DNA from: Flavobacterium dauae
Lineage (GTDB): Bacteria > Bacteroidota > Bacteroidia > Flavobacteriales > Flavobacteriaceae
Assembly: GCF_004151275.2 (NCBI RefSeq)
Contig: NZ_CP130821.1
Span: 868,001-932,000, forward strand
DNA length: 64,000 bases
Reading direction: 5' to 3'
The notes under the pieces are model-generated. The model saw only the letters and a program-made list of their open reading frames with translations. It did not search any database and was not told the DNA's origin. This document shows, one piece after another, positions 28,463 to 62,345 of the stretch. Numbering within the stretch: position 1 is the first letter of the stretch; every line of letters begins with the position of its first letter. A program made the translations under genes and the position numbers.

Positions 28463-28536
28463 GCCTCTGTAGCTCAGCTGGCTAGAGCAGCTGATTTGTA
28501 ATCAGCAGGTCGTGGGTTCGAGTCCCTCCAGAGGCT
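28463..28536 (+). tRNA. tRNA-Thr (anticodon TGT), copy 1
   Basis: 74 nt with acceptor GCCTCTG/CAGAGGC, D-arm GCTCAGCTGGCTAGAGC, anticodon stem GCTGA/TCAGC with loop TTTGTAA (TGT), and T-loop TTCGAGT. The second T-stem pair is T-T. No encoded CCA. Confidence 0.95.
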
Positions 28537-28545
28537 CAAGTTCTT

Positions 28546-28662
28546 AATCAAATTGAAAATATTGTTTATGCCTCTGTAGCTCAGCTGGCTAGAGCAGCTG
28601 ATTTGTAATCAGCAGGTCGTGGGTTCGAGTCCCTCTAGAGGCTCAAAATTTTCAATTTGATT
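28546..28662 (+). repeat. 15-bp inverted repeat enclosing tRNA-Thr copy 2
   Basis: AATCAAATTGAAAAT at 28546-28560 and its exact reverse complement at 28648-28662 flank the middle tRNA. In the precursor RNA they would pair as a stem closing around the tRNA. Confidence 0.7.
28570..28643 (+). tRNA. tRNA-Thr (anticodon TGT), copy 2
   Basis: Identical to copy 1 except for one base, which turns the seventh acceptor pair into G-U (TAGAGGC). It is flanked by a perfect 15-bp inverted repeat (see findings). Confidence 0.95.
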
Positions 28663-28684
28663 TTTTACTAAATTTACAATATTT

Positions 28685-28758
28685 GCCTCTGTAGCTCAGC
28701 TGGCTAGAGCAGCTGATTTGTAATCAGCAGGTCGTGGGTTCGAGTCCCTCTAGAGGCT
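28685..28758 (+). tRNA. tRNA-Thr (anticodon TGT), copy 3
   Basis: Identical to copy 2. The terminator follows 8 nt downstream, so the three copies form one transcript. Confidence 0.95.
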
Positions 28759-28765
28759 CCATAAA

Positions 28766-35835: not shown

Positions 35836-36006
35836 TGAAGGAAAAAGCAGGAAAAAGCAAGGTTTCGCAAAAGTAAGGTTACTAAAACGTTACTTTTAAA
35901 AATTGAAAACAATAATATTAAAATACTGTATTTCAGCTTTCTGCATAGTTTTTCATATTGTTCCGTAGCTCACTTAGTTTTAATTTTAACATTAAGAATT
36001 GTGAGT

Positions 36007-37257
36007 ATGGAAACGACAAAAAAATCAACGTTTAAGGTTCTTTTCTACCTTAAAAAGAATGCTCCGAAGAAGAACGGAAAGGTTACGGTTATGTGCAGGA
36101 TTACCGTAAATGGTAAACAATCTGCATTCAGTACAAAGCTGGATATTACCGCAACAAATTGGGATTTGAAGTACGGCAGGGTTTTAGGAAAAAGCCGAGA
36201 AGCCCAAGATGTGAACAGCAAACTTGACAAAATCCGTTCAGGTATTGAGGAATGCTATTCCAAAATTCTGAAGAACGAGGGGGCTGTAAACAGTACTAAA
36301 CTTAAAAATGCCTTCCTCGGTATGGAAAGCGGAGAACTTACTTTTTTTAAATTTTACGAACAGTTTCTGTCTGACTATGAGAAAAAAGTCAATAGCGGAC
36401 TTCGGGTAAATGGAACACGGAGTAAGTACAAAACACTATTAAGACATCTTCGCAATTTTGTACGTACAAGATACGGTTACTCCGATGTATCTTTTAACGA
36501 CCTTACTCCTGATTTTGTACAGGACTTTGATTACTACCTGCGTGATGACCAAAGCTTGACACATAACACGATTTGGCTGTATATGATTGGCTTTACCACG
36601 CTTTGCCGATTGGCAATGAGCAGAAATCATCTTGCTTTTAATCCGTTCAGCGAGTATAAGAACACAAAAAAGGACAAAGACAGAGGTTATCTGTTACGGA
36701 ATGAATTGGAACAACTTGTAACGTTCAACTGCGATAAAAAGAAAGACGAATTGGTTAAAGACCTGTTTGTTTTCAGTTGCTTTACTGGTCTTTCCTATTC
36801 AGATATGAAAGGGCTTAGAAACAGCAATATTCAGGATTTTTTTGACGGTAACCAGTGGATTATCATACGTAGGAAAAAAACAGCCACATCGTCAAATGTG
36901 ATGCTGTTGGATATTCCAAAAATGATTATCGAAAAATATGCAGGATTTTCAAAAGACGGAAAGGTATTTTCTGTACCATCAAATACAGTCTGTAATGATA
37001 GTTTGAAACGAATATCCCAACAGATTGAATGCCTGAAAGAAAAGAAAGTAACCTTTCATTTGGCACGCCATACGTTTGCCACGCTGTTTTTGAGCGAGGG
37101 CGTTCCGCTCGAAAGTTTGAGCAAGATGTTAGGGCATAAAAACATTGCTACTACACAGATTTACGCAAAAATTCTCAACGAGAAAGTTGGTAAGGATATG
37201 CAAAAGGTATCGCATAAGTTTAAAAGTATGGAAAGCTCTTTTGGGGCTCAACTTTAA
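36007..37257 (+). CDS. int: Tyrosine recombinase / integrase (CTnDOT-like)
   Basis: From the ATG at 36007 the protein has 416 residues (a GTG at 36001 would add two). An Arm-binding N-terminal domain (FKVLFYLKKNAPKKNGKVTV) is followed by a SAM-like core-binding domain (about 110-210) and the catalytic domain with HLARHTFATLFLSEGV, LGHKNIATTQIYAKI and the nucleophile Tyr. The first catalytic Arg is replaced: the motif reads CFTGLSYSDMKGL, with Ser where most tyrosine recombinases have Arg, as described for IntDOT. It should catalyse integration and excision of the surrounding element. Confidence 0.93.
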   Translation: METTKKSTFKVLFYLKKNAPKKNGKVTVMCRITVNGKQSAFSTKLDITATNWDLKYGRVLGKSREAQDVNSKLDKIRSGIEECYSKILKNEGAVNSTKLKNAFLGMESGELTFFKFYEQFLSDYEKKVNSGLRVNGTRSKYKTLLRHLRNFVRTRYGYSDVSFNDLTPDFVQDFDYYLRDDQSLTHNTIWLYMIGFTTLCRLAMSRNHLAFNPFSEYKNTKKDKDRGYLLRNELEQLVTFNCDKKKDELVKDLFVFSCFTGLSYSDMKGLRNSNIQDFFDGNQWIIIRRKKTATSSNVMLLDIPKMIIEKYAGFSKDGKVFSVPSNTVCNDSLKRISQQIECLKEKKVTFHLARHTFATLFLSEGVPLESLSKMLGHKNIATTQIYAKILNEKVGKDMQKVSHKFKSMESSFGAQL

Positions 37258-41257: not shown

Positions 41258-41932
41258 TTAACGCCTGAAACCTCTCCCTTTTTTTGGCAGGTTTGGTCTT
41301 TCTCCGAACTTGAACATTGGATTATCAACGGCTTTTTTTAATCTCTCAGCAATCTTTTTCAGATCACTTTCTTTCTCTCCCAGTATCTTTACTTTTGCTT
41401 CCTTATCTATATTGTCGTGATGTAACAAGGCATATGAAGCCATCGCAGGATTACCGCCATATTTACTTTGGTAGGTCTGCAAATAAGTTTTGAGCGGATA
41501 ATGTTCTAAAAGAAAATGCATATCTATAAAATCCTTTATACGAGTGCCATTTTGAAAGATAGCGTGGAGTTTCATTGCCCCTATATCTTCTAAGGAAGCT
41601 AAGCGTACTCCTTCTTTTGTTTCAATAGGCTTTTGCCAAAGATATTTGTGAGCGAGAATATCTACTTTAATCTTGTCTATATCGAGCAGGATTGTATTGT
41701 CAAACATATCCCTTATCACTACCGCTGGATACTTATCGGCTAAATGTTTCAATAGAGTTTGTTCATCAAAGCCTTTTGTAGTGAACAGGTCTATATCAAT
41801 ACTTATGCGATGACCAATTTGTAGGCTTAATGCAGTACCTCCAACGAGATTAAAGTCTTTCAGCTTTTCATCTTTCATCAGCCTTTGGAGAAGATCCCAC
41901 ATCTCTGTACTGATCGTTTCTTTGTGTAGCAT
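41258..41932 (-). CDS. AbiEii/AbiGii-type nucleotidyltransferase toxin
   Basis: This 224-residue protein has the family core: FNLVGGTALSLQIGHRISID with the catalytic DxD (SIDIDLFT), then DKIKVDILAHKYLW and VRLASLEDIGAMKLHAI. AbiEii proteins are abortive-infection toxins that modify tRNA ends or similar nucleic acid targets. The protein is somewhat shorter than AbiEii of type IV systems. Paired with the DUF6922-like gene it would form a toxin-antitoxin or phage-defence unit on the element. Confidence 0.9.
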   Translation of the reverse strand: MLHKETISTEMWDLLQRLMKDEKLKDFNLVGGTALSLQIGHRISIDIDLFTTKGFDEQTLLKHLADKYPAVVIRDMFDNTILLDIDKIKVDILAHKYLWQKPIETKEGVRLASLEDIGAMKLHAIFQNGTRIKDFIDMHFLLEHYPLKTYLQTYQSKYGGNPAMASYALLHHDNIDKEAKVKILGEKESDLKKIAERLKKAVDNPMFKFGERPNLPKKGRGFRR

Positions 41933-43131: not shown

Positions 43132-44394
43132 ATGATTGCAAAAATTGGAAAGGGAAGCAATATGTACGGTGCAATTTTGTACAATCAGCAGAAAGTGGAC
43201 AATGAAAACGGGGCAGTTTTGTTATTGAACAAGATACCCGATACAGTGGACGGAAGGTATTCTGTAGCCTATTTTAATAAATGCTTTGAGCCGTATCTAT
43301 CGGCAAATATCAAAACGGAAAAGACAGTAAGGCATATTTCACTGAACCCAGATCCTTCGGATAAGGTCAGCGATGAACAGTTTATGGAAATGGCACAGGA
43401 GTATATGGAAAGTATGGGGTATGGTAATCAACCTTATATTGTTTTCAAGCATACGGATATTGACCGAACACATATACACATTGTTTCAACCTGTGTAGGC
43501 ATTGACGGTAAGAAAATCACTGATACTTACGATCATCCACGCTCAATGGCAATTTGTAGGGATTTAGAACAGAAATATAATCTGCAAAAGGTGACCGAAC
43601 AGGAACATAAACAAGCCAACAAAATTTTCAGACCTGTGGATTACCACAAAGGCGACATCAAAAGTCAGATTGCTTCGGTAGTAAGACATCTGCCAAAGCA
43701 TTATAGTTTTTCTACTATGGGAAACTACAATGCTTTGCTATCACTATTCAACATTACAGCGGAAGAAGTCAAAGGAGAGCGGAACGGACAACCTGTAAAC
43801 GGATTGGTGTATGTAGCATTGGATGAGAAAGGAAACAAGGTAAGCAATCCATTTAAAGCATCGCTATTCGGGAAAGATGCAGGCGTGGCACAACTACAAA
43901 AACATTTTGAGCAATCTAACGAGAAAATGAAAACCCACCCTGTAAGGGCTGTTTTGAAAAATACGGTGGAACTTGCCATACATACAACAGGCAATGAAAT
44001 GGAGTTTAAAAAGCAACTTGTAGAACAGGGTATCAGTATGATTGTCCGCCGGAACGAAAGCGGACGGATTTACGGAATGACCTTGATCGACCACGAAAAC
44101 CGAAGTGTTTGGAACGGCTCACAATTAGACAGAAATTTGTCGGCAAACGTATTCAATGATTGGTGGAACAACGGAAACAAACCCGAATTAAAAATACAGG
44201 ACACCCCTGTTTCCAAAACAAACACATCGGACGATTTGCCAATGAAAGACCTTTTTGAGTTTAGTTCACAGGAACATTCCCACAGTTCAGATTTAGGATT
44301 GTTGAGTGTGTTATCTGATACACAAGGAGAGGATTACGAAGAGGAAAAGTTTGCTAATCAGATGAAGAAGAGGTGGAAAAGACGAAAACACTAG
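43132..44394 (+). CDS. mobB: Relaxase MobB (relaxase/mobilization nuclease domain)
   Basis: This 420-residue protein has the relaxase metal site FKHTDIDRTHIHIVST (His107, Asp109, His114, His116) and N-terminal tyrosines (GAILYNQQKV) expected for the nicking residue. A second conserved segment is ARVLKN-like HPVRAVLKNTVELAI. It would nick oriT and lead the strand into the recipient. No coupling protein gene is present, so the element needs a helper for transfer. It is in operon with mobA. Confidence 0.92.
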   Translation: MIAKIGKGSNMYGAILYNQQKVDNENGAVLLLNKIPDTVDGRYSVAYFNKCFEPYLSANIKTEKTVRHISLNPDPSDKVSDEQFMEMAQEYMESMGYGNQPYIVFKHTDIDRTHIHIVSTCVGIDGKKITDTYDHPRSMAICRDLEQKYNLQKVTEQEHKQANKIFRPVDYHKGDIKSQIASVVRHLPKHYSFSTMGNYNALLSLFNITAEEVKGERNGQPVNGLVYVALDEKGNKVSNPFKASLFGKDAGVAQLQKHFEQSNEKMKTHPVRAVLKNTVELAIHTTGNEMEFKKQLVEQGISMIVRRNESGRIYGMTLIDHENRSVWNGSQLDRNLSANVFNDWWNNGNKPELKIQDTPVSKTNTSDDLPMKDLFEFSSQEHSHSSDLGLLSVLSDTQGEDYEEEKFANQMKKRWKRRKH

Positions 44395-44510: not shown

Positions 44511-45854
44511 TTGAACGTGGGCAGAGTATTAATAATAGACGATGAGGAAAAATTGAGAAACCTCCTTTCAAAAATAATTGGTTTTGAAGGTTTTGAGGTT
44601 TTTCAGGCATCCAATATCAAATCGGGTTTACAAAGGTTAGAAGCAGAAGAAATAGATGTTATTATCTGCGATGTCAAGCTTCCTGATGGAAGCGGTGTGG
44701 ACACCGCAAAACTGATTAAAGAAAAATTCACATCAGTAGAAGTTATTCTGCTGACCGCCTACGGCAATATACCGGATGGCGTACAAGCTATTAAGAACGG
44801 TGCGTTCGATTATATAACCAAAGGTGATGATAACAATAAGATTATTCCACTTCTTTATAAAGCCAGTGAAAAGGTAGCTTTAAACAAAAGAGTTCAACAA
44901 TTAGAAAAGCAGTTAGGCAAAAAATATTCCTTTGATAAAATTATCGGTACATCAAAGCCAATCCTAAAAGCAATTGAATTGGCTAAAAAAGTCGCACCAA
45001 AAGATACAACAGTATTATTAACCGGAGAAACAGGAACTGGTAAGGAGGTTTTTTCACAGGCCATTCATCAAGGTAGCCCGAGAGCAAACCAAAATTTTGT
45101 TGCGATAAACTGCTCTGCATTTAGTAAAGAGCTCTTAGAAAACGAATTATTTGGTCACAAAGCGGGTTCATTTACAGGTGCTAATAAAGATCAAAAAGGA
45201 CTTTTTGAGGAGGCTCATAATGGAACCATATTCTTGGATGAAATAGGAGAAATGGCTATGGACTTGCAAGCTAAAATTTTACGTGTATTAGAAACGGGTG
45301 AATTTTTGCGTGTTGGTGATGCCAAACCCATAAAAGTCAATGTGCGTGTAATCGCTGCAACTAATCGAAATCTGGAAAACGAAATTGAGTTAGGTCATTT
45401 CAGAAGTGATTTGTTTTACAGACTTTCTGTATTTGGTATAGAACTTCCATCTTTGAGAGAGCGTGTAAAAGACATCAAATTGTTGGCACAGTATTATGCC
45501 GATCTTTTTGCAATCAAATCCAATAGAAAGCCATTAGCCCTATCTGAGGATTATGTTACAGCGTTGGAAAACAATCCCTGGAAAGGAAATATACGCGAGT
45601 TGAAAAACGTGATTGAAAGAAGCGTGATTTTAGCGGATGATGACCTGCTTGACTTAGATACGCTGCCGGTAGACCTTCAATATGCAAAATCAAATGCAAA
45701 ACAATTGTCTGCATTTTCTATGGCCAGTGCAGAGAAACTGCACATTCAGAAAATACTAAATCATACCAATGGAAATAAAGCAGAAACAGCTCGCTTGTTA
45801 GAAATCGGGATTGCAACCCTTTACCGAAAAATGGAGTTGTATAAACTTCAGTAG
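44511..45854 (+). CDS. Sigma-54-dependent response regulator (NtrC/RteB type)
   Basis: This 447-residue protein has a receiver domain (VLIIDDEEKL; phospho-acceptor Asp54 in ICDVKLPDGSG), an AAA+ domain (GETGTGKEVFSQAI; sigma-54 contact loop GSFTGA instead of GAFTGA; LFEEAHNGTIFLDEIGEMAM) and a C-terminal Fis-type HTH (NKAETARLLEIGIATLYRKM). Start: an in-frame stop lies 12 bp upstream, so the gene must begin at TTG 44511 or GTG 44517. AATTGT...ACAATT upstream (44483-44506) is a possible operator. It probably pairs with the kinase at 59706 and controls the Kdp/Trk block; a CTnDOT RteB role is also possible. Confidence 0.9.
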   Translation: MNVGRVLIIDDEEKLRNLLSKIIGFEGFEVFQASNIKSGLQRLEAEEIDVIICDVKLPDGSGVDTAKLIKEKFTSVEVILLTAYGNIPDGVQAIKNGAFDYITKGDDNNKIIPLLYKASEKVALNKRVQQLEKQLGKKYSFDKIIGTSKPILKAIELAKKVAPKDTTVLLTGETGTGKEVFSQAIHQGSPRANQNFVAINCSAFSKELLENELFGHKAGSFTGANKDQKGLFEEAHNGTIFLDEIGEMAMDLQAKILRVLETGEFLRVGDAKPIKVNVRVIAATNRNLENEIELGHFRSDLFYRLSVFGIELPSLRERVKDIKLLAQYYADLFAIKSNRKPLALSEDYVTALENNPWKGNIRELKNVIERSVILADDDLLDLDTLPVDLQYAKSNAKQLSAFSMASAEKLHIQKILNHTNGNKAETARLLEIGIATLYRKMELYKLQ

Positions 45855-51013: not shown

Positions 51014-51331
51014 CTTTCTTTGCTTATCCCTCTGATTTATGCTGAAAAATGACTTAGAAACCAGTCATTTTATGATTAATAAAGTACAAAAATATAAAAT
51101 TAAAAACGATTCCCCATATTAATCAAGGTGATATAGTCCTTTAGAATTTCGCTCGTTATCCCCAAAAAATCTGTGCTCTTATCAAAATGATAATCATCCT
51201 ATCATTTTGATAAGGTTTTTGTTTCAATAAATTCCGTGAGATCGGAATAAAATATTGATTTTCAATTTATTATGACTTGTGAAATTCTATTGGAATAAGT
51301 TTTGGCATAGAGGATATAAAAGAAATTAAAA
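51014..51331. other. Divergent control region between nhaA and the kdp block
   Basis: This 318-bp region holds no credible gene. AAAATGACT and AGTCATTTT (51044-51069) form a hairpin close to the nhaA start. A second inverted repeat lies at 51181-51211. TATTTTTG read on the minus strand at 51087-51094 may be the nhaA -7 element. I found no clear -24/-12 sigma-54 site; TGGCATAGAGGATATA at 51302-51317 has only the -24 half. Confidence 0.5.
51181..51211. promoter_or_regulatory. 12-bp inverted repeat, candidate operator
   Basis: ATCAAAATGATA and TATCATTTTGAT are separated by 7 bp. It sits midway between the divergent nhaA and kdp-side genes, the right place for an operator of the sigma-54 regulator or RteC. 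Confidence 0.45.
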
Positions 51332-51475
51332 ATGAGGAAAAGAAATGTCAAATGGAAACAGCAGAAAGAACCGCCTTCGTTTCCAAAATGGCTAAAATCA
51401 TACCACTTATTGCTTTTCGCATTTATTGTGGTTATGATTTTTGGAGCAATTATGAAGCACATTAGTACCACTTAA
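51332..51475 (+). CDS. Single-span microprotein 1 (47 aa)
   Basis: This 47-residue protein starts MRKRNVKWKQQKEPPSFPKW, a basic cytoplasmic part, and continues into one membrane helix (YHLLLFAFIVVMIFGAIM). It is the first gene of the kdp-side transcript. No family is recognised. A start with the basic stretch inside and a short tail outside fits the positive-inside rule. Confidence 0.6.
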   Translation: MRKRNVKWKQQKEPPSFPKWLKSYHLLLFAFIVVMIFGAIMKHISTT

Positions 51476-51487
51476 AAATAAATAAAA

Positions 51488-51571
51488 ATGATAACAATAG
51501 TTTTAGTACTCGCAGGTTTAGCCTGTTTCGGTCTGTTCATTAAGTCAATTGACTTCTTTGAGAAAATCTAA
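51488..51571 (+). CDS. Single-span microprotein 2 (27 aa)
   Basis: This 27-residue protein (MITIVLVLAGLACFGLFIKS then IDFFEKI) is almost all membrane helix. Its size resembles KdpF-type peptides, but the true KdpF lies at 52618. It is 12 bp after microprotein 1 and 6 bp before the first DUF7674-like gene. Confidence 0.55.
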   Translation: MITIVLVLAGLACFGLFIKSIDFFEKI

Positions 51572-51577
51572 AATAAA

Positions 51578-51937
51578 ATGAAAACAAAAATCATAAATAC
51601 GATACAACAATGGGCTCCTGAAGCCGCAAGACTCATTCCTGATTTGGATACTTTGGACGATTCTATTGCAGACTATCTGCTACTGCATAAACTGGCAGAA
51701 GTTTGTTCACAAAAAATAGGTTCTGGATTAGAAGATGAATTAGAGCGTGTTCAAGAGATAGCCAAAGTTATAAATCTTTTGTATCAAGGAGGAAATCAAT
51801 ACACGCGGAATGCCATTGAAAATGAGTTTCTGACAGCGCTATCTTTTGAAGAAAGCCCAGGAAGCCTAAAAAAACATATGGATTTATTTCCGATCGAATT
51901 ACGGAAAGGGTATATCAAAACCATTTTAGAAAACTAA
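51578..51937 (+). CDS. DUF7674-like protein, paralog 1
   Basis: This 119-residue soluble helical protein contains YLLLHKLAEVCSQKIGSGLE and YQGGNQYTRNAIENEFLTAL, with a helical end (DLFPIELRKGYIKTILEN). It is homologous to the product of 52238 (matching GN-x-Y-x4-IEN-x-F). I recall the family as DUF7674, often near kdp genes in Bacteroidota. Function is unknown. Confidence 0.75.
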   Translation: MKTKIINTIQQWAPEAARLIPDLDTLDDSIADYLLLHKLAEVCSQKIGSGLEDELERVQEIAKVINLLYQGGNQYTRNAIENEFLTALSFEESPGSLKKHMDLFPIELRKGYIKTILEN

Positions 51938-51944
51938 TTAAGTA

Positions 51945-52112
51945 ATGAAAGTTTTAAAAGAAAAAACACATTGGTCGGCTAAAATAAAAAAAGCAGTATT
52001 AGCAATTTTATTGTTTGTCCTGTTTGCCGTATGCGTAAAGCTTGGCGGATTCGCAGGTCTTTTGATCGGCTTTGTATTTTTCTTTTTATTCTTTCAATTA
52101 ATAAGCAGATGA
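51945..52112 (+). CDS. Small membrane protein (55 aa), microprotein 3
   Basis: This 55-residue protein has a basic start (MKVLKEKTHWSAKIKKAVLA) and two close hydrophobic stretches (ILLFVLFAVCV, LLIGFVFFFLFFQL). It is 7 bp after DUF7674 paralog 1 and its stop overlaps the next ATG (ATGA). It is too short for the usual gene callers. Confidence 0.6.
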   Translation: MKVLKEKTHWSAKIKKAVLAILLFVLFAVCVKLGGFAGLLIGFVFFFLFFQLISR

Positions 52113-52219
52113 AAAAAGAACGAAAATCAAATAGGGAAATAGTTACGGATATATTGGCAAAAGTACTTTTAGCTTTTATTGTCTTCTGTATTTTCTATGC
52201 GATGTTCTCCAGTAAATAA
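52109..52219 (+). CDS. Single-span microprotein 4 (36 aa)
   Basis: This 36-residue protein, MKKERKSNREIVTDILAKVL then a helix LAFIVFCIFYAMF, begins in the stop of the gene before (ATGA overlap). It ends 18 bp before the second DUF7674-like gene. Unknown role. Confidence 0.58.
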   Translation: MKKERKSNREIVTDILAKVLLAFIVFCIFYAMFSSK

Positions 52220-52237
52220 AAAGAAGTTTTTAAATCA

Positions 52238-52621
52238 ATGAACGAAATAAATGAAAACACAGCCAGTACTTATCTGGCACATCACTACGGTGAAATTAAA
52301 GAAGAAATCAATGAACTATCCATGCGAAAAAATTTTGCAGGAATATTTCAGGCAATTGTCAACCACATCAATCTCTTGCTTTCCAAAGGACAGATAGAGA
52401 AAATTGGGGTAAAGATTAAGTTCATCGGTTGGCTTCATAAAAGAGGAAATGAGTATGTACAATACATCATTGAAAATTTGTTTGTGCGCTCTTTTGAAGG
52501 AATGAAAAGACGTTGCACTACAGAACAATGGATTTATATGTACCAGCTCATTCCCAATAACCTGAAGCATGTTTATCAGCTTCAGAACACAAATTATTTA
52601 ACACAAAAAACAAGTCTATGA
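52238..52621 (+). CDS. DUF7674-like protein, paralog 2
   Basis: This 127-residue soluble protein contains YLAHHYGEIKEEINELSMRK and KRGNEYVQYIIENLFVRSFE, aligning with paralog 1 in the GN-x-Y-x4-IEN-x-F core and in the final helix (YQLIPNNLKHVYQLQN). Its stop overlaps the kdpF start. Two diverged copies in one operon suggest a hetero-oligomer or two targets; inference only. Confidence 0.75.
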   Translation: MNEINENTASTYLAHHYGEIKEEINELSMRKNFAGIFQAIVNHINLLLSKGQIEKIGVKIKFIGWLHKRGNEYVQYIIENLFVRSFEGMKRRCTTEQWIYMYQLIPNNLKHVYQLQNTNYLTQKTSL

Positions 52622-52695
52622 CAGCATTATTCATAGTAGCCATAGGTGTATTTGTCTATATATGCTACGTATTGCTCAAACCAGAAAAATTTTAA
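52618..52695 (+). CDS. kdpF: Potassium-transporting ATPase subunit KdpF
   Basis: This 25-residue peptide (MTALFIVAIGVFVYICYVLL then KPEKF) has the KdpF pattern of one helix ending in LLKPEKF. KdpF stabilises the KdpABC complex. The start overlaps the previous stop (ATGA). In most operons kdpF directly precedes kdpA; here two more microproteins come between. Confidence 0.8.
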   Translation: MTALFIVAIGVFVYICYVLLKPEKF

Positions 52696-52708
52696 AACGC
52701 TTCAGCAG

Positions 52709-52822
52709 ATGAAGAAAGATACAAAAGGAAAAATCAAGGAATGGGTATCCATCATATTCTGGATACTGTTCTTCATTTCGATCATTTATCTGGCTTTTCT
52801 AAAAATTCAAATATTGCTATGA
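52709..52822 (+). CDS. Single-span microprotein 6 (37 aa)
   Basis: This 37-residue protein, MKKDTKGKIKEWVSIIFWIL then FFISIIYLAFLKIQ, has a basic start and one helix. It ends in an ATGA overlap with the next microprotein. It sits between kdpF and kdpA. Confidence 0.58.
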   Translation: MKKDTKGKIKEWVSIIFWILFFISIIYLAFLKIQILL

Positions 52823-52932
52823 AAAAGATACTTACTGAAATGAAAGATGTAGCCCGAATTGCTTTGATATTCCTGATTGTATTAGCATTGGTCAGGCTGT
52901 TCGGATGGATGTTTAAAACCATATTTAATTAA
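52819..52932 (+). CDS. Single-span microprotein 7 (37 aa)
   Basis: This 37-residue protein, MKKILTEMKDVARIALIFLI then VLALVRLFGWMFKTIFN, has one helix and an amphipathic end. The longer frame from 52741 is out of place, so the ATG at 52819 is chosen. kdpA starts 5 bp after its stop. Confidence 0.6.
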   Translation: MKKILTEMKDVARIALIFLIVLALVRLFGWMFKTIFN

Positions 52933-54646: not shown

Positions 54647-56656
54647 ATGAACAATAATACATCATTGTTTCAAAAAGATATGGTTCAGGAAGCACTGAAA
54701 CAATCTTTTGTGAAACTCAATCCGAAAACCATGTTCCGTAATCCGGTTATGTTTACCGTATGGATCGGTACTTTGGTTATGCTGGTCGTGAGTTTATGGA
54801 CGTTGGCAGGAGCTCAGGAACAGGGAAGTTTTGGCTATAATTTTACCGTCTTTATCATCCTTTTGCTTACCCTGTTATTTGCGAATTTTGCAGAGGCAAT
54901 TGCTGAAGCAAGAGGTAAAGCACAAGCAGATAGTTTGCGTAAGACAAGAGAGGAAACTCCTGCAAGATTAAAAAATGGGAAAATGATCTCCTCTGCTCAA
55001 TTACAAAAAGGTGATGTTTTCATCTGTGAAGCTGGCGACATCATTCCTTCTGATGGGGAAATTATTGAAGGCTTAGCGACCATCGATGAAAGTGCAATTA
55101 CCGGAGAATCTGCTCCTGTGATTCGTGAAGCAGGTGGTGACAAAAGTTCTGTTACCGGTGGTACCAAAGTTTTGTCCGATAAAATCGTGGTGCAGGTAAC
55201 AACGCAACCGGGCGAAAGTTTTCTAGATAAAATGATTGCCTTGGTAGAAGGTGCTGCCCGACAAAAAACACCTAATGAAATCGCTTTAACGATTTTGTTG
55301 GCAGGATTTACACTTGTGTTTATCATTGTCTGTGTCACACTCAAACCATTTGCCGATTATGCAAATGTTGGGATTACCATTGTTTCTTTTATCTCTTTAT
55401 TTGTATGTCTTATTCCGACTACCATTGGTGGATTGTTGTCTGCAATCGGTATTGCAGGGATGGACAGAGCATTGAGAGCCAATGTGATTACAAAAAGTGG
55501 GAAAGCAGTAGAAACCGCAGGTGATATCGATGTGTTGCTGTTGGATAAAACCGGTACGATTACTATTGGTAACCGTAAAGCCACCCATTTTCACCCTGCT
55601 AATGGCATTGACGAGAAAAAACTTATAAAAGCAGCTGTACTAAGTTCCATGGCTGATGAAACTCCCGAAGGAAAATCTATCATTGAATTAGCAGGAATCA
55701 ATCCGTTAAGTTATGAAGTTAGAAATCCTCAATTCATCAAGTTTACAGCTGAAACAAGAAGTTCAGGAATTGATTATGAAAATACACGTATTCGAAAAGG
55801 TGCAACCGATGCAATAAAAAATCTGGTTACAAAAGCAGGTAATAATTTCCCAAAAGAGATTGAAGAAAGAGTGAAAGCCATATCCTCTAATGGAGGTACG
55901 CCGTTGGTCGTATCAGAAAACGAAATTGCATTGGGAGTAATTGAGCTACAGGACATCATCAAACCGGGTATTCAGGAACGTTTCGAACGTCTGCGTAAAA
56001 TGGGTATCAAAACCGTCATGGTAACGGGTGACAATCCTTTGACTGCTAAATTTATAGCTGAAAAAGCAGGTGTAGACGATTTCATCGCGGAGGCTAAACC
56101 CGAAGACAAGATGAACTACATTAAAAAAGAACAGTCAGAAGGTCGCTTGGTCGCTATGATGGGTGATGGAACAAATGATGCACCAGCCTTAGCACAGGCT
56201 GATGTAGGTGTAGCAATGAACTCTGGTACACAGGCTGCAAAAGAAGCGGGAAACATGGTCGATCTGGATAATGACCCGACTAAACTGATTGAAGTAGTAG
56301 AAATCGGAAAACAATTACTGATGACCCGTGGTACATTGACCACTTTCAGTATTGCAAATGATGTGGCCAAGTATTTCGCTATCATCCCTGCACTGTTTAT
56401 CACAGCGATTCCTGCATTGCAAGGACTGAATATTATGAATTTACACAGTCCGGAAAGTGCAATACTATCAGCTGTAATTTTCAACGCAATCATCATTCCA
56501 ATGTTGATACCATTAGCATTGAAAGGTGTAGCTTACAAACCTATTGGAGCAAGTGCATTACTTCGAAGAAACCTGTTTATTTATGGTTTAGGCGGTGTAC
56601 TGATACCTTTTGTAGGAATCAAGCTGATTGATATGCTTATATCAATTTTCTTTTAA
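54647..56656 (+). CDS. kdpB: Potassium-transporting ATPase subunit KdpB
   Basis: This 669-residue P-type ATPase is the catalytic subunit. It has [20 protein letters not shown] (actuator, TGES), the phosphorylation site [25 protein letters not shown] and [20 protein letters not shown] (hinge). ATP hydrolysis drives K+ uptake through KdpA. All catalytic motifs are intact. Confidence 0.97.
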
Positions 56657-56678: not shown

Positions 56679-57239
56679 ATGAAAAAACATATTTTGCCCG
56701 CAATAAAATTGACTGCTGTTATGATCCTGTTTTTTACGGTCATTTACCCACTTGCAGTCTGGGGTATCGCACAGTTTGCTCCTAATGCTGGAAAAGGAGA
56801 AATTATAGAGCACAACGGAAAGAAACATTATGTCAATATTGGTCAGTCTTTTACAGAAGACAACTATTTCTGGCCAAGACCATCGGCCGTAGATTACAAT
56901 GCTGCTGGTTCAGGAGGTAGTAACAAAGGTCCTTCTAATGAGGAATACTTGGCAGAAGTTCAGGCACGAATTGATACTTTTTTAGTGCACAATCCCGGAG
57001 TTGATAAATCTGAAATACCTGTTGACCTGGTTACGGCTAGTGGAAGTGGACTGGATCCTAACTTCTCTGTTCAGGCTGCAAAGGTACAGGTAGCACGAAT
57101 CGCTAAAATAAGGGGTATTGATGAGGTTAAATTGAATCAATTAATTGATGAACAAACCGAAAAACCTTTGTGGGGTATGTTTGGTCCCGAAAAAATCAAT
57201 GTACTTAAATTAAATATCGCTCTGGATCAACTTAAATAA
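56679..57239 (+). CDS. kdpC: Potassium-transporting ATPase subunit KdpC
   Basis: This 186-residue protein has one N-terminal membrane helix (AIKLTAVMILFFTVIYPLAV) and a soluble domain with YFWPRPSAVDYNAAGSGGSN and ASGSGLDPNFSVQAAKVQVA. It is an accessory subunit that raises the affinity of the complex for ATP. Gap to kdpB is 22 bp. The 182-bp space after it holds no gene I can support. Confidence 0.96.
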   Translation: MKKHILPAIKLTAVMILFFTVIYPLAVWGIAQFAPNAGKGEIIEHNGKKHYVNIGQSFTEDNYFWPRPSAVDYNAAGSGGSNKGPSNEEYLAEVQARIDTFLVHNPGVDKSEIPVDLVTASGSGLDPNFSVQAAKVQVARIAKIRGIDEVKLNQLIDEQTEKPLWGMFGPEKINVLKLNIALDQLK

Positions 57240-58582: not shown

Positions 58583-59704
58583 ATGGACGAAAGAAAAAGT
58601 GCAGAACATTTTTTAGACCTCATTCAGAAATCCCGAAGAGGAAAATTCAAGCTCTATATCGGGATGAGTGCCGGTGTGGGTAAAACCTATCGAATGTTAC
58701 AGGAAGCACATACGCTATTGCGAAACGGTATCGATGTGAAAATCGGATATATCGAAACACACAAAAGACCAGAGACCCATGCTTTGTTGGATGGGCTTCC
58801 GGTCATTCCACGCAGAAAACTTTTCTATAAGGGGAAAGAATTAGAGGAACTGGATCTGCAAGCCATTATAAACCTTCGTCCAGAAGTTGTGATTGTTGAT
58901 GAATTGGCTCATACCAATATTGAAGGTAGCAATAACGAAAAGCGATGGCAGGACGTACTCGATATTTTAGATGCCGGGATTAATGTAATCAGTGCAGTAA
59001 ATATTCAACACATTGAAAGTTTGAATGAAGAAGTGCGGGAAATTACAGGAATTGATGTACAGGAACGTATTCCCGACAGCGTAGTCGCTCAGGCTGATGA
59101 GGTGGTCAATATTGATCTTACAGCAGAAGATTTGATAGATCGTTTAAAAGCCGGAAAAATATATGAAAGCTCTAAAATAACAGCAGCACTTAATAATTTT
59201 TTTAAGAGTGAGCATATTTTACAGCTTCGTGAGTTGGCGTTAAAGGAGGTAGCTTCGCAGGTGCAGCGAAAAGTAGAAACCGAAGTTGTACTTACAAGAA
59301 GCATCAAAAAGGAACGTTTCCTGGCCTGCATCAGTTCAAACGAAAAAACAGCCAAAAACGTTATTAGGAAAACGGCACGATTAGCTAATTATTACAACAG
59401 TAAATGGTATGTGATGTATGTGCAAATACCTAAAGAAAGCCCTGATAAAATTGCTCTGGATAAACAACGGCATTTGATTAATAATTTTAAATTAGCTACT
59501 GAATTAGGAGCAGAAATAATTAAGGTAAAGGCCAAAAACACCACTAAGGCAATCATCAAAGAGTGTGAAGATCGTAAGATAACTACGGTCTGTATCGGTA
59601 AACCACATTTAAACTTAGCTAAAATTATTTTAGCGACTGATACATTCAATGCCTTGCTGAACAAGCTGTCACAGGAAAATATTGATCTCGTAATACTATC
59701 ATAA
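58583..59704 (+). CDS. KdpD N-terminal sensor domain plus Usp domain, no kinase
   Basis: This 373-residue protein matches only the N-terminal half of KdpD. The KdpD domain has Walker A GMSAGVGKTYRML (27-39), Walker B VVIVDELAHTN and NVISAVNIQHIESLNEEV; a Usp-like domain (about 250-373) has FLACISSNEKTAKNVIRK and TVCIGKPHLNLAKIIL. The membrane and histidine-kinase part of KdpD is absent. A separate kinase begins 1 bp after its stop. It should sense K+ state and signal through that kinase. Confidence 0.9.
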   Translation: MDERKSAEHFLDLIQKSRRGKFKLYIGMSAGVGKTYRMLQEAHTLLRNGIDVKIGYIETHKRPETHALLDGLPVIPRRKLFYKGKELEELDLQAIINLRPEVVIVDELAHTNIEGSNNEKRWQDVLDILDAGINVISAVNIQHIESLNEEVREITGIDVQERIPDSVVAQADEVVNIDLTAEDLIDRLKAGKIYESSKITAALNNFFKSEHILQLRELALKEVASQVQRKVETEVVLTRSIKKERFLACISSNEKTAKNVIRKTARLANYYNSKWYVMYVQIPKESPDKIALDKQRHLINNFKLATELGAEIIKVKAKNTTKAIIKECEDRKITTVCIGKPHLNLAKIILATDTFNALLNKLSQENIDLVILS

Positions 59705-59705
59705 A

Positions 59706-61442
59706 ATGAGAATTAAAGCAAAATTAACGGTTGGAGTTGGTGCTCTATTTTTATTGATACTGGCACTGGCAATTGTTAGTGGCTGGTATGTAAACCAACT
59801 GAAAAAAGATACTAATAATATCTTAGTTGCCAATTACAATACCTTACAGTATGCCCGTAACATGCTTTTGTCTTTGGAAGATGTTCGTTCAGACAAATCT
59901 GCTGTAGATACTTTTCAAAAAAATCTCGATCTGCAAAAGCAGAATGTAACGGAGATTGGAGAAATCGAAGCTACCAATCTTATCGTTAAACATTTTAAAG
60001 ATTTAAAAGAAAACCCGGAAGATTCTATCGTAATATCATCTATAAGGAAAGACATCACGGAGTTAATGCGTCTAAACATGGAAGCTATCAACAGGAAGAG
60101 TGATATTGCCGACGATACCGCTCAAAAAGCAATTGTCATCATTTCAGTTACTGGCTCACTATGCTTCCTGATTGCATTTATTTTATTGGTCAATTTACCT
60201 TCTAATATAGCCAATCCCATTAAGGAATTAACCGATAGTATAAAAGAAATAGCTGGGCAGAATTATAAAAAGAGGGTGCATTTTGAAAGCCATAATGAGT
60301 TTGGTGACTTAGCAAAATCATTCAACACGATGGCGGAGAAGCTGGAAGAATATTCCGAGAGTAAGCTCGATAAAATCCTAAAAGGCAAAAAACGAATTGA
60401 AACGTTGATTGATAATCTTCATGATCCCGTTATTGGAATTGATGAAAACAAAAAAGTGCTTTTCGCTAATGAAGAAGCTTTGAATATTTGCGGTCTAAAA
60501 AAAGAAGAGTTCATTGGCAAACAAATACAGGATATAGCCGTTACCAATGATTTAATTAGAAATATCATTAAGGATATTTTTCTTCTTAAGCCCGAAAATG
60601 CTAAATCCGAACAATTAAAGATTTATGCCGACAGAAAGGAAAGCTATTTTGAGAAAGAGGTTGTTGACATCAATATCGTTCCAACCGGAGAAGCGGATAG
60701 TGAATTTATCGGTCAGGTTATTCTTCTGAGAAATATCACACCATTTAAAGAGCTGGATCTGGCAAAGACCAATTTTATGGGAACTGTTTCCCATGAATTT
60801 AAAACACCTATTTCGTCGATGCAATTAGGTATTCAAATTCTTGAGAATGAAAAGACAGGTCACTTAAATGAGGAACAAAAAGGATTAATTAATGGTATAA
60901 AGGACGATGCTGACAGGCTTTTACGAATTACCGGAGAGTTATTAAACATCGCACAGGTTGAAAGTGGTGCTATTCAAGTAAACTTAATTAGTTCAGAAAT
61001 TAAGCCCATGATTGAGTATGCTGTAAATGCCAATAAATCTGCTGCTGATCACAAGAATATTAAAATCGATGTTGATATAGATAATAATGCACTCGTTGCT
61101 GCCGATAGTGAAAAAACGGCATGGGTTCTTACCAATCTCATCTCCAATGCCGTTCGGTATTCGTATGAGAATGCAACGATTTTTGTTAAAGCCGAAAAAG
61201 AAAACGATCAGATAAAATTTTCCGTCACCGACACAGGGCAGGGAATACAACCTCAATTTCTGGATAAAATATTTGAACGCTATTTCCGTATTCCCGGTAC
61301 TAAAAAAGAAGGTACAGGATTAGGATTAAGTATCAGCAAAGAGTTTATTGAAGCTCAGGGAGGAAAAATCTGGATAGAGAGTGAGTATGGTACTGGTAGT
61401 ACTTTTTGCTTTACGCTAAATTCCATAGATAAAGACTTCTAA
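59706..61442 (+). CDS. HAMP-PAS sensor histidine kinase
   Basis: This 578-residue protein has two membrane segments (8-28 and about 147-167), a HAMP domain (SNIANPIKELTDSIKEIAGQ), a PAS domain (DNLHDPVIGIDENKKVLFAN), a dimerisation box with His363 (MGTVSHEFKTPISSMQLG), and an ATPase domain (NLISNAVRYS, DTGQGI, KKEGTGLGLSISKEF). It replaces the kinase half of KdpD and is translationally coupled to the KdpD-N gene. The sigma-54 regulator at 44511 is the obvious partner. Confidence 0.94.
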   Translation: MRIKAKLTVGVGALFLLILALAIVSGWYVNQLKKDTNNILVANYNTLQYARNMLLSLEDVRSDKSAVDTFQKNLDLQKQNVTEIGEIEATNLIVKHFKDLKENPEDSIVISSIRKDITELMRLNMEAINRKSDIADDTAQKAIVIISVTGSLCFLIAFILLVNLPSNIANPIKELTDSIKEIAGQNYKKRVHFESHNEFGDLAKSFNTMAEKLEEYSESKLDKILKGKKRIETLIDNLHDPVIGIDENKKVLFANEEALNICGLKKEEFIGKQIQDIAVTNDLIRNIIKDIFLLKPENAKSEQLKIYADRKESYFEKEVVDINIVPTGEADSEFIGQVILLRNITPFKELDLAKTNFMGTVSHEFKTPISSMQLGIQILENEKTGHLNEEQKGLINGIKDDADRLLRITGELLNIAQVESGAIQVNLISSEIKPMIEYAVNANKSAADHKNIKIDVDIDNNALVAADSEKTAWVLTNLISNAVRYSYENATIFVKAEKENDQIKFSVTDTGQGIQPQFLDKIFERYFRIPGTKKEGTGLGLSISKEFIEAQGGKIWIESEYGTGSTFCFTLNSIDKDF

Positions 61443-61522: not shown

Positions 61523-62345
61523 ATGCATAAATTTTATAGAGATAAACTAAAAGAACTTGATGAACGAATTGAAGTATATAAAATTGAGTTTGATGAACCA
61601 ATTCAGCTGGCAGAAGCATCTGTTTCTCTCATCCTAAATTATCTTAAGGAAGTCAAACTATATGTTCTGGAAAAAGGATTTGACAAGGAAGAAGATGAAA
61701 TATATTTCTTTAAAAAACTGAAGCCAGATATTTTGTCTAAATTAATATACTATAATGCTATTTTTAAGATTGAATCGAAAAAAACCTCACGGCTCATATA
61801 AATTAATAAAAAAGTATCTTAGCAACGAACAAATAAGGCTGAAAAAATACTTTGATAATAATTTGGAATTTTATAAATACTGTAGAACGAATAGCACTTA
61901 TATGGATCAAAAATATTTTGTAAGGGGTAAACATGATATCAAGCTTAGCCTTGACACATATTTTTTTGAATCAGATCATAATTTTTCAACATCCCACGAT
62001 TATAAAGTTGCAAAAATTTTGGCAAATGATTTAATACAAGTCTATTTGGAGGATCGACTTTCCCACTTACAAAAAAGGAGCAAACCAATAAATCATTCAA
62101 ATTTAAATTGGACTGCAAGTAAAACTGTATTAATAGAGTTAATTTATGCATTGCACTCCCAAGGAGTATTCGAAAATGGAAATGTAAAGCATATTGCAAA
62201 GTATTTTGATAGCGTTTTCAATATCGAATTAGGTGATTTTTACCATACGTTTATGGAAATTAAATCTCGAAAAATAAATCGTACAAAATTTATTGATACC
62301 CTTAAACTTAGTTTGGTTCGAAAGATAGAAGAGTATGAAAAATAG
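61523..62345 (+). pseudogene. rteC: rteC, frameshifted in an A7 run
   Basis: The first frame (61523-61801, HKFYRDKLKELDERIEVYKI) and second frame (61755-62345, KKYLSNEQIRLKKYFDNNLE ... KIEEYEK) are both parts of RteC, the CTnDOT excision/transfer regulator of about 275 residues. They join at seven A (61778-61784): with six A the reading would be ESKKPHGSYKLI in one frame. The DNA-binding C-terminal part is intact. Either a true loss of function or slippage control. Confidence 0.82.

Follow-up and report, generated by a model that had tools for sequence, protein, structure and literature searches.

A candidate KdpF companion among the microproteins of a kdp operon carried on an integrative element of Flavobacterium dauae

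KdpF (PF09604, TIGR02115) is a single-span protein of 25-30 amino acids (aa) that is encoded just before kdpA and forms part of the Kdp pump; Gassel reportedly described in 1999 that it stabilises the Kdp complex of Escherichia coli. The closest parallel for a single complex served by several small proteins is offered by CydX, CydY and CydZ of cytochrome bd, which are likewise short single-helix proteins of a membrane-complex operon, found by operon comparison (available passages of PMC4325964). The present analysis concerns a stretch of 64,000 nucleotides (nt) of Flavobacterium dauae, hereafter the window (positions 868001-932000 of contig NZ_CP130821.1, assembly GCF_004151275.2, a 2.94 Mb single-contig genome; genus relatives have about 2-6 Mb), where an integrative element carries a kdp operon whose 5' half is the array at 51332-52932. 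This array encodes KdpF, six further microproteins (sm1 to sm6) and two DUF7674 proteins. The microprotein sm2 is like KdpF in operon, size and C-terminal charge, but it ends F-[ED]-K-I and not P-E-K-F, and the KdpF models match neither sm2 nor the other microproteins. CydX has complementation data for a different complex, whereas sm2 is known here from sequence alone; moreover, CydX occurs in Alpha-, Beta- and Gammaproteobacteria with likely transfer, whereas the Kdp companion was found in several phyla (same passages of PMC4325964). On balance, we lean towards a reading in which the kdp array is expressed from a sigma54 promoter, sm2 serves the pump as an accessory subunit in the manner of KdpF, and the other microproteins are lineage-specific modulators.

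Nine genes tile the array, and kdpA follows them directly. The eleven named loci mentioned in the list are described below.

51332..51475, plus strand: sm1, 47 aa, basic N-terminus and one hydrophobic segment; first gene 3' of the promoter motif
51488..51571, plus strand: sm2, 27 aa, single-span KdpF-companion microprotein with the C-terminus KSIDFFEKI
51578..51937, plus strand: DUF7674a, 119 aa, PF24722 (E 1.2e-17, 64.5 bits)
51945..52112, plus strand: sm3, 55 aa, two hydrophobic segments, probable hairpin
52109..52219, plus strand: sm4, 36 aa, basic N-terminus and one hydrophobic segment
52238..52621, plus strand: DUF7674b, 127 aa, PF24722 (E 9.1e-20, 71.2 bits)
52618..52695, plus strand: kdpF, 25 aa, PF09604 (E 4.9e-7, above cut-off)
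52709..52822, plus strand: sm5, 37 aa, basic N-terminus and one hydrophobic segment
52819..52932, plus strand: sm6, 37 aa, basic N-terminus and one hydrophobic segment
52938..54626, plus strand: kdpA, PF03814 (E 3.3e-229)
54647..56656, plus strand: kdpB, named by eye from its translation; present in 11/11 named loci
56679..57239, plus strand: kdpC, named by eye from its translation

The seven small frames and the two DUF7674 genes among them, as described in a first-pass annotation of this DNA, were all found at their coordinates, with both DUF7674 proteins above the PF24722 cut-off of 27 bits. KdpF scored 29.9 bits with PF09604 (cut-off 21.2) and 27.5 bits with TIGR02115 (cut-off 26.85). The repeated ATGA overlaps were confirmed as three (52109, 52618 and 52819), and the remaining gaps were of 5-18 nt. 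A count of frames that start with ATG, span 25-60 aa and contain a hydrophobic segment gave seven on the plus strand and one on the other strand, while 500 dinucleotide shuffles of the stretch gave a mean of 0.27 and a maximum of three against the seven observed. The claim that all seven have a basic start and one helix held for sm1, sm4, sm5 and sm6 but not for sm3, with its two segments, nor for sm2 and KdpF, which are basic C-terminally. Since basic residues lie after the helix in sm2 and KdpF and mostly before it in the other five, the two groups should, by the positive-inside rule, have opposite membrane orientations.

The family of sm2, with the consensus-like form MITFLLLALAVVLFAICFKSVEFFEKI, was followed in 84 other Bacteroidota kdpA loci (25 relatives, 40 across the phylum and 19 further). 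Of 117 KdpA places listed, 67 were used and 50 were left out, many of these from family f31 or the window's genus; L167 was excluded from the 84 loci (contig too short). In three loci (L117, L133, L162) KdpF was not found by rule, leaving 81 to be counted, and the 84 are not independent, with 21 from the window's genus and nine from family f31. A companion was defined as a transmembrane (TM) frame of 21-60 aa whose stop falls between 70 nt upstream and 12 nt downstream of the KdpF start. Such a microprotein adjoined kdpF in 70/81 loci, compared with 4.1% when the 200 nt upstream were shuffled. The C-terminal motif [FYWLCAI][EDAS][KNHRQD][ILV], which was defined after the sequences had been seen, was present on the companion in 52/81 loci and in none of 1620 shuffles judged by the same rule. 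Other types of adjoining frame were MDDIIYICIAVVFFLLTWGLMKMCE-like (five loci) or MNVYQTLYLGILIFLV-like (most of the nine f31 loci). In the window, sm2 is parted from kdpF by the segment from DUF7674a through sm3 and sm4 to DUF7674b, yet it has the same family sequence. Scans of sm2 and nine other companions gave no Pfam or NCBIfam model above cut-off; sm2 matched neither KdpF model (PF09604, TIGR02115) nor any family up to E 1, and the nine others likewise gave no KdpF match. A Protein Data Bank (PDB) search with one companion gave no match, and a PHROGs search gave nothing below E 0.03. In a partial paper collection, the literature search turned up no report of KdpF being accompanied by another microprotein; for Caulobacter, an unannotated kdpF-like gene has been reported, with no companion named in the available passages (PMC8552747).

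The companion was also found outside Bacteroidota. Of 26 kdp loci from a plasmid collection, chosen for taxonomic spread from 465 records and thus not random, 18 had a TM microprotein next to KdpF: Deinococcus (two), Allomeiothermus, Rhizobium, Sinorhizobium, Acetobacter, Roseomonas, Azospirillum, Thalassospira, Novosphingobium, Burkholderia, Caballeronia, Variovorax, Arthrobacter, Listeria, Bacillus, Niallia and Subdoligranulum. It was located 5' of KdpF in 16 loci and 3' in two (Allomeiothermus and Burkholderia), and typical forms were MMDIILLGTAILFFALCLAYTRACDRL and MLDIIALAITAAFFAASIAYVHACDRL. Five of the carriers (L173, L175, L178, L180, L194) were scored as such despite the lack of one of the two end motifs, in L146 and L177 KdpF was recognised by eye, and the L176 companion ends 121 nt before KdpF. 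KdpF without companion was found in five loci (E. coli, Pluralibacter, Providencia, Levilactobacillus and Halobacterium), where Levilactobacillus (L177) was scored as lacking it, as the TM frame that the loose rule picks up there has neither motif; KdpF itself was not found in Sphingobium, Picosynechococcus and Synechocystis. By rule, a TM frame lay within 130 nt before KdpF in 17 of 21 non-Bacteroidota loci, the motif-less Levilactobacillus included (shuffles 5.5%), and an acidic residue at position 2 or 3 together with the C-terminal motif was also present in 11 of the 21 (shuffles 0.2%). A profile comparison between Bacteroidota sm2 and the companions of other phyla aligned 23 columns in register with a probability of 34% and a score of 17.1, which none of 200 column permutations equalled; these independent sets replace an earlier comparison (88-91%), not used, whose sets shared a member and both contained Bacteroidota loci. 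A single family across phyla is thus suggestive only. Among 15 annotated companion-carrying records, Bacteroides included, KdpF was annotated in nine and the companion in one (Arthrobacter, as a hypothetical protein); with a gene table that is incomplete and a window genome that came without annotation, this lends indirect support to the expectation that gene callers would miss most of these frames.

Selection was assessed in close relatives of the array. When 84,980 species genomes were scanned with DUF7674b from exact peptide-pattern seeds, a procedure that reaches close relatives only, 11 named loci were obtained with 71-100% identity: four in Sphingobacterium, four in Chryseobacterium, and one each in Weeksella, Pedobacter and a metagenome-assembled Bacteroidetes genome. 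Conservation of the frames, proposed as a check, held for a core of sm2, DUF7674a, DUF7674b and KdpF, intact in 11/11, but not for sm1 and sm3 to sm6, which were lost or broken in some loci. Thus, sm1 was intact in 10/11 (frameshifted in L098), and sm3 in 8/11 (frameshifted in L091, absent from L098 and L099); sm4 and sm6 were each present in 9/11, as was sm5, which was full length in 7/11 and reduced to 30 aa by a one-base deletion in L092 and L094. As judged from substitution patterns, all nine array genes were shown to be under purifying selection, in accordance with the earlier view of the frames as real genes. Between the window and L097, the ratio of nonsynonymous to synonymous differences (pN/pS) was 0.15 for sm1, 0.07 for sm2, 0.05 for DUF7674a, 0.15 for sm3, 0.10 for sm4, 0.10 for DUF7674b, 0.04 for kdpF, 0.19 for sm5 and 0.13 for sm6, and each gene had fewer residue changes than under random substitution (P 0.02 or less). 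Over all locus pairs, pN/pS ranged from 0.00 to 0.48.

The microproteins of the array are of several kinds: besides the established KdpF there is sm2, a member of a widespread class, and the remaining ones (sm1, sm3, sm4, sm5 and sm6) differ by lineage, being either missing from other kdp loci or variable among them. Only pairs scoring 28 or more were tested against layout-preserving shuffles, and these tests showed that sm5 resembles a TM microprotein of L124 (0/300 shuffles) and, more weakly, those of L129 (0.023) and L029 (0.07). For sm1, sm3, sm4 and sm6 the best shuffle values were 0.013-0.033, unremarkable given the number of pairs; one family for all microproteins was rejected, as these four were not shown to be related by the pairwise tests.

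The head of the operon and its probable regulators comprise the following features.

51198..51215, plus strand: palindrome CCTATCATTTTGATAAGG, candidate enhancer (upstream activating site) for a sigma54 response regulator
51292..51308, plus strand: sigma54-like -24/-12 element GGAATAAGTTTTGGCAT (GG-N11-GC), conserved motif
44511..45854, plus strand: sigma54-activating response regulator (PF00158 E 7.8e-70, PF00072 E 9.8e-26), probable regulator of the kdp operon
58583..59704, plus strand: protein with KdpD N-terminal sensor domain (PF02702 E 2e-92)
59706..61442, plus strand: HAMP/PAS histidine kinase, probable partner of the KdpD sensor-domain protein

On both strands of the window, the promoter motif occurs twice and the palindrome once. 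The promoter motif was counted in 23/25 relatives, 9/11 named loci and, in the wider Bacteroidota sets, 5/40 and 5/19 loci; the palindrome was counted in 14/25, 6/11, 6/40 and 0/19, respectively. The N11 motif was defined on the loci in which it was then counted, and its distance from the palindrome is a sounder criterion: the two starts lie 92-95 nt apart in all 23 loci that hold both, a set that includes the window, named loci and the wider set, with several near-identical copies. For the window operon, the enhancer-like site at fixed distance and a PF00158 activator are both present, and similar-looking response-regulator translations were seen by eye upstream of kdp in many relatives. Our inference is that palindrome and motif form an enhancer and a sigma54 promoter with a variant spacing of 11 nt, and that sm1 is the first gene of the kdp transcript. 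The array frames lie between the sigma54-like promoter motif and kdpA and are therefore probably co-transcribed with the pump. Sigma54 control of Kdp is thereby pointed to in at least this Bacteroidota group; the word kdp is absent from the main text of two sigma54 papers, as far as that text was available (PMC12316311, PMC9723704). At 58583-61442, KdpD is split into the sensor-domain protein, without kinase domain, and the separate histidine kinase.

Both soluble paralogs match DUF7674 (PF24722), a family for which Pfam gives no function. In the phylum sample, DUF7674 was found in 29/296 genomes, and 27 of these 29 were also listed with KdpA, compared with 112/395 overall; the other two, G521 and G588, are perhaps outside the KdpA search set. 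Within the window's genus, all 13 DUF7674-positive genomes had KdpA, and five listed DUF7674-negative genomes had none. A DUF7674-like form of 93-94 residues was seen by eye in 19/21 kdp loci of genus relatives, 3' of the promoter motif and 5' of the sm2-like gene (L031 and L038 lack it), and PF24722 was confirmed at the kdp locus for G049, G060 and G234. Elsewhere, a DUF7674-like gene lies in the kdp locus of L114 and L116, and between porin and kdpD sensor in L058. This frequent placement in kdp operons is reported here and, from gene neighbourhood, ties an uncharacterised family to Kdp. The literature search, in the same partial paper collection, found no mention of DUF7674. When a DUF7674 profile was compared with the PDB, the top match (E 0.013) covered part of a CBS-domain protein and was not usable. 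Five genomes of g5, another genus of the same order, carry a DUF7674 pair like that of the window, 594-646 nt apart and away from kdp. In one g5 locus (L059, 1456-2449; the pair is also in L060, L061 and L063), a 42-aa TM microprotein stands between the two, which recalls the DUF7674a-sm3-sm4-DUF7674b segment of the window. In a distant genome (L078, 547-1887, minus strand), DUF7674 is apparently fused to a metallophosphoesterase-like domain, as judged by eye.

In the reading that we favour, low potassium would activate the sensor pair, and the response regulator of the element would then drive the kdp operon. The nine array genes would be transcribed with kdpABC from the sigma54 promoter, so that the microproteins are made along with the pump. 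As predicted for KdpF, sm2 would insert with its N-terminus out and C-terminus in, and it may act as a further small subunit or as an assembly or stability factor on KdpA/KdpB, joining KdpF to stabilise or tune the complex. The microproteins with basic N-termini would insert N-in by the positive-inside rule and could be lineage-specific modulators or packing helices of the Kdp complex, and the two soluble DUF7674 proteins may be cytoplasmic regulators tied to Kdp; both groups would be added layers that differ by lineage. The first-pass annotation had suggested that the microproteins other than KdpF are extra stabilising or regulatory subunits of KdpFABC or TrkH; since a similar microprotein adjoins kdpF across Bacteroidota and other phyla, there is circumstantial support for a Kdp subunit in the case of sm2 only, sm1 and sm3 to sm6 being absent or variable elsewhere. 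A bolder version, which we entertain tentatively, is that most bacteria with KdpF have a fifth, single-helix Kdp subunit beside KdpF, which would have escaped naming because E. coli lacks it, and that in this element the pump has recruited up to five more microproteins and two DUF7674 regulators. Kdp is a model P-type ATPase, and its solved structures presumably all come from E. coli: the 25 PDB entries related to KdpA collapse to three sequences of 557 residues, which we take to be those of E. coli. If the companion is a true subunit, the known structures would show a stripped-down Kdp. The operon also offers a natural series of one to seven small membrane proteins for studying how accessory microproteins are added to a pump.

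Several observations weigh against this reading. No TM frame adjoins kdpF in 11/81 Bacteroidota loci, about three of the 70 matches are expected by chance and some look chance-like (e.g., L109), and the companion is absent from all three Enterobacterales loci sampled; its absence from these loci and from the 11 in Bacteroidota indicates that it is not essential to the enzyme, and hence accessory and not core. The comparison of companion with KdpF profiles gave the same score, 17.1, as that of sm2 with the companions of other phyla. The absence of all of sm3 to sm6 from L098 and L099, together with the broken copies of sm1, sm3 and sm5 in other named loci, makes most of the array dispensable. 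Purifying selection was not significant for sm4 (P 0.075) and sm5 (P 0.127) between the window and L095, for sm4, sm6 and kdpF between the window and L092 (2-3 differences), and for sm2 between L095 and L097 (P 0.054) or the window and L098 (P 0.085). Beyond the genus, the promoter motif was found in 10 and the palindrome in six of 59 Bacteroidota loci. The motif spacing is 11 where the canonical spacing is 10, with GG-N11-GC before the operon in both the window and the genus relatives; the strict canonical sigma54 pattern was found in none of the relatives L028-L052, and N10-like variants were noted, by eye only, in L115, L120, L123, L135 and L140. Finally, 18/29 DUF7674 positives come from two genera, so that shared ancestry inflates the association with Kdp.

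As an alternative, the microproteins may not be structural subunits and may instead regulate a KdpD-type sensor or serve as an inhibitory, phospholamban-like off-switch of the pump. This is unlikely in our judgement, but it draws on the sensor genes in the same element, on a mycobacterial paper in which a section is headed with KdpF interacting with KdpD (PMC3618439, in the part available), and on animal P2A pumps, which can have single-helix subunits such as phospholamban (PMC10654040, in the part available); nothing was found that speaks against it or that separates regulator from subunit. A second alternative takes the small frames as translational-coupling or leader devices that set the output of kdpF and kdpA, with peptides that themselves do little. 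Such devices would be in keeping with the ATGA overlaps, with gaps that never exceed 18 nt and with the two truncated sm5 copies in operons that are otherwise intact, but the conserved amino-acid sequences (pN/pS 0.04-0.19 between the window and L097), the C-terminal motif of sm2 kept across the phylum and the hydrophobic segments in all seven make it improbable. That sm2 is a second KdpF arisen by duplication and already within the KdpF family is very improbable: size, charge-based orientation and genomic neighbour are all alike, and hhalign aligned Bacteroidota sm2 to Bacteroidota KdpF over the helix with a probability of 65%, but PF09604 and TIGR02115 match the neighbouring KdpF and not sm2, the KdpF signature Y-L...P-E-x-F is missing from sm2, and against KdpF from other phyla the alignment breaks down (probability 6%), which leaves a plain KdpF copy unsupported.

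From about 36 kb the window is a CTnDOT-like integrative element, beginning near hisS, with the following features besides the kdp operon.

36001-37257: tyrosine integrase of the integrative element
41258-41932, minus strand: AbiEii-type nucleotidyltransferase gene within the element
43132-44394: relaxase (MobA/VirD2) of the integrative element
61755-62345: RteC of the integrative element

Integrase, relaxase and RteC, the features of CTnDOT-type elements, were thus all found in the window around the cargo; the cargo differs from that of such elements in its K+/Na+ transport genes (kdp, trk, nhaA). The minus-strand part of the cargo, which reaches 51013, comprises trkA, trkH, a DUF389 protein and nhaA; the plus-strand part is the kdp operon followed by porin, the KdpD sensor-domain protein and the histidine kinase (trkA, trkH, nhaA, kdpB, kdpC and porin were named from translations, the rest from Pfam). 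In five named loci (L089, L090, L091, L093, L097), an RteC match follows DUF7674b at the same distance as in the window (9.4-9.5 kb), and in L096 at 10.7 kb, giving 6/11 in all (contigs matched by coordinates). Neighbouring proteins found in the named loci were 77-100% identical, with trkH and nhaA matched in 9/11 and DUF389 in 6/11. A link of the microproteins to TrkH, which had been proposed, found no support: trkA, trkH and nhaA are on the opposite strand, where trkH is the more distant of the last two, and sm2 is retained in L098 and L099 although the roughly 12 kb covered there gave no match to trkH.

The cargo DNA is 94-96% identical over about 9-12 kb to genomes of Chryseobacterium, Weeksella and Sphingobacterium alimentarium, and Chryseobacterium and Sphingobacterium belong to different orders. 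A plasmid search with DUF7674b gave no match, and in 299 genomes of the window's genus DUF7674b found, besides its own, three weak matches (23-27% identity). Such close loci in different orders, together with only weak matches in its own genus, point to horizontal movement of the array. Outside the element, three consecutive tRNA-Thr(TGT) genes were observed at 28463-28761.

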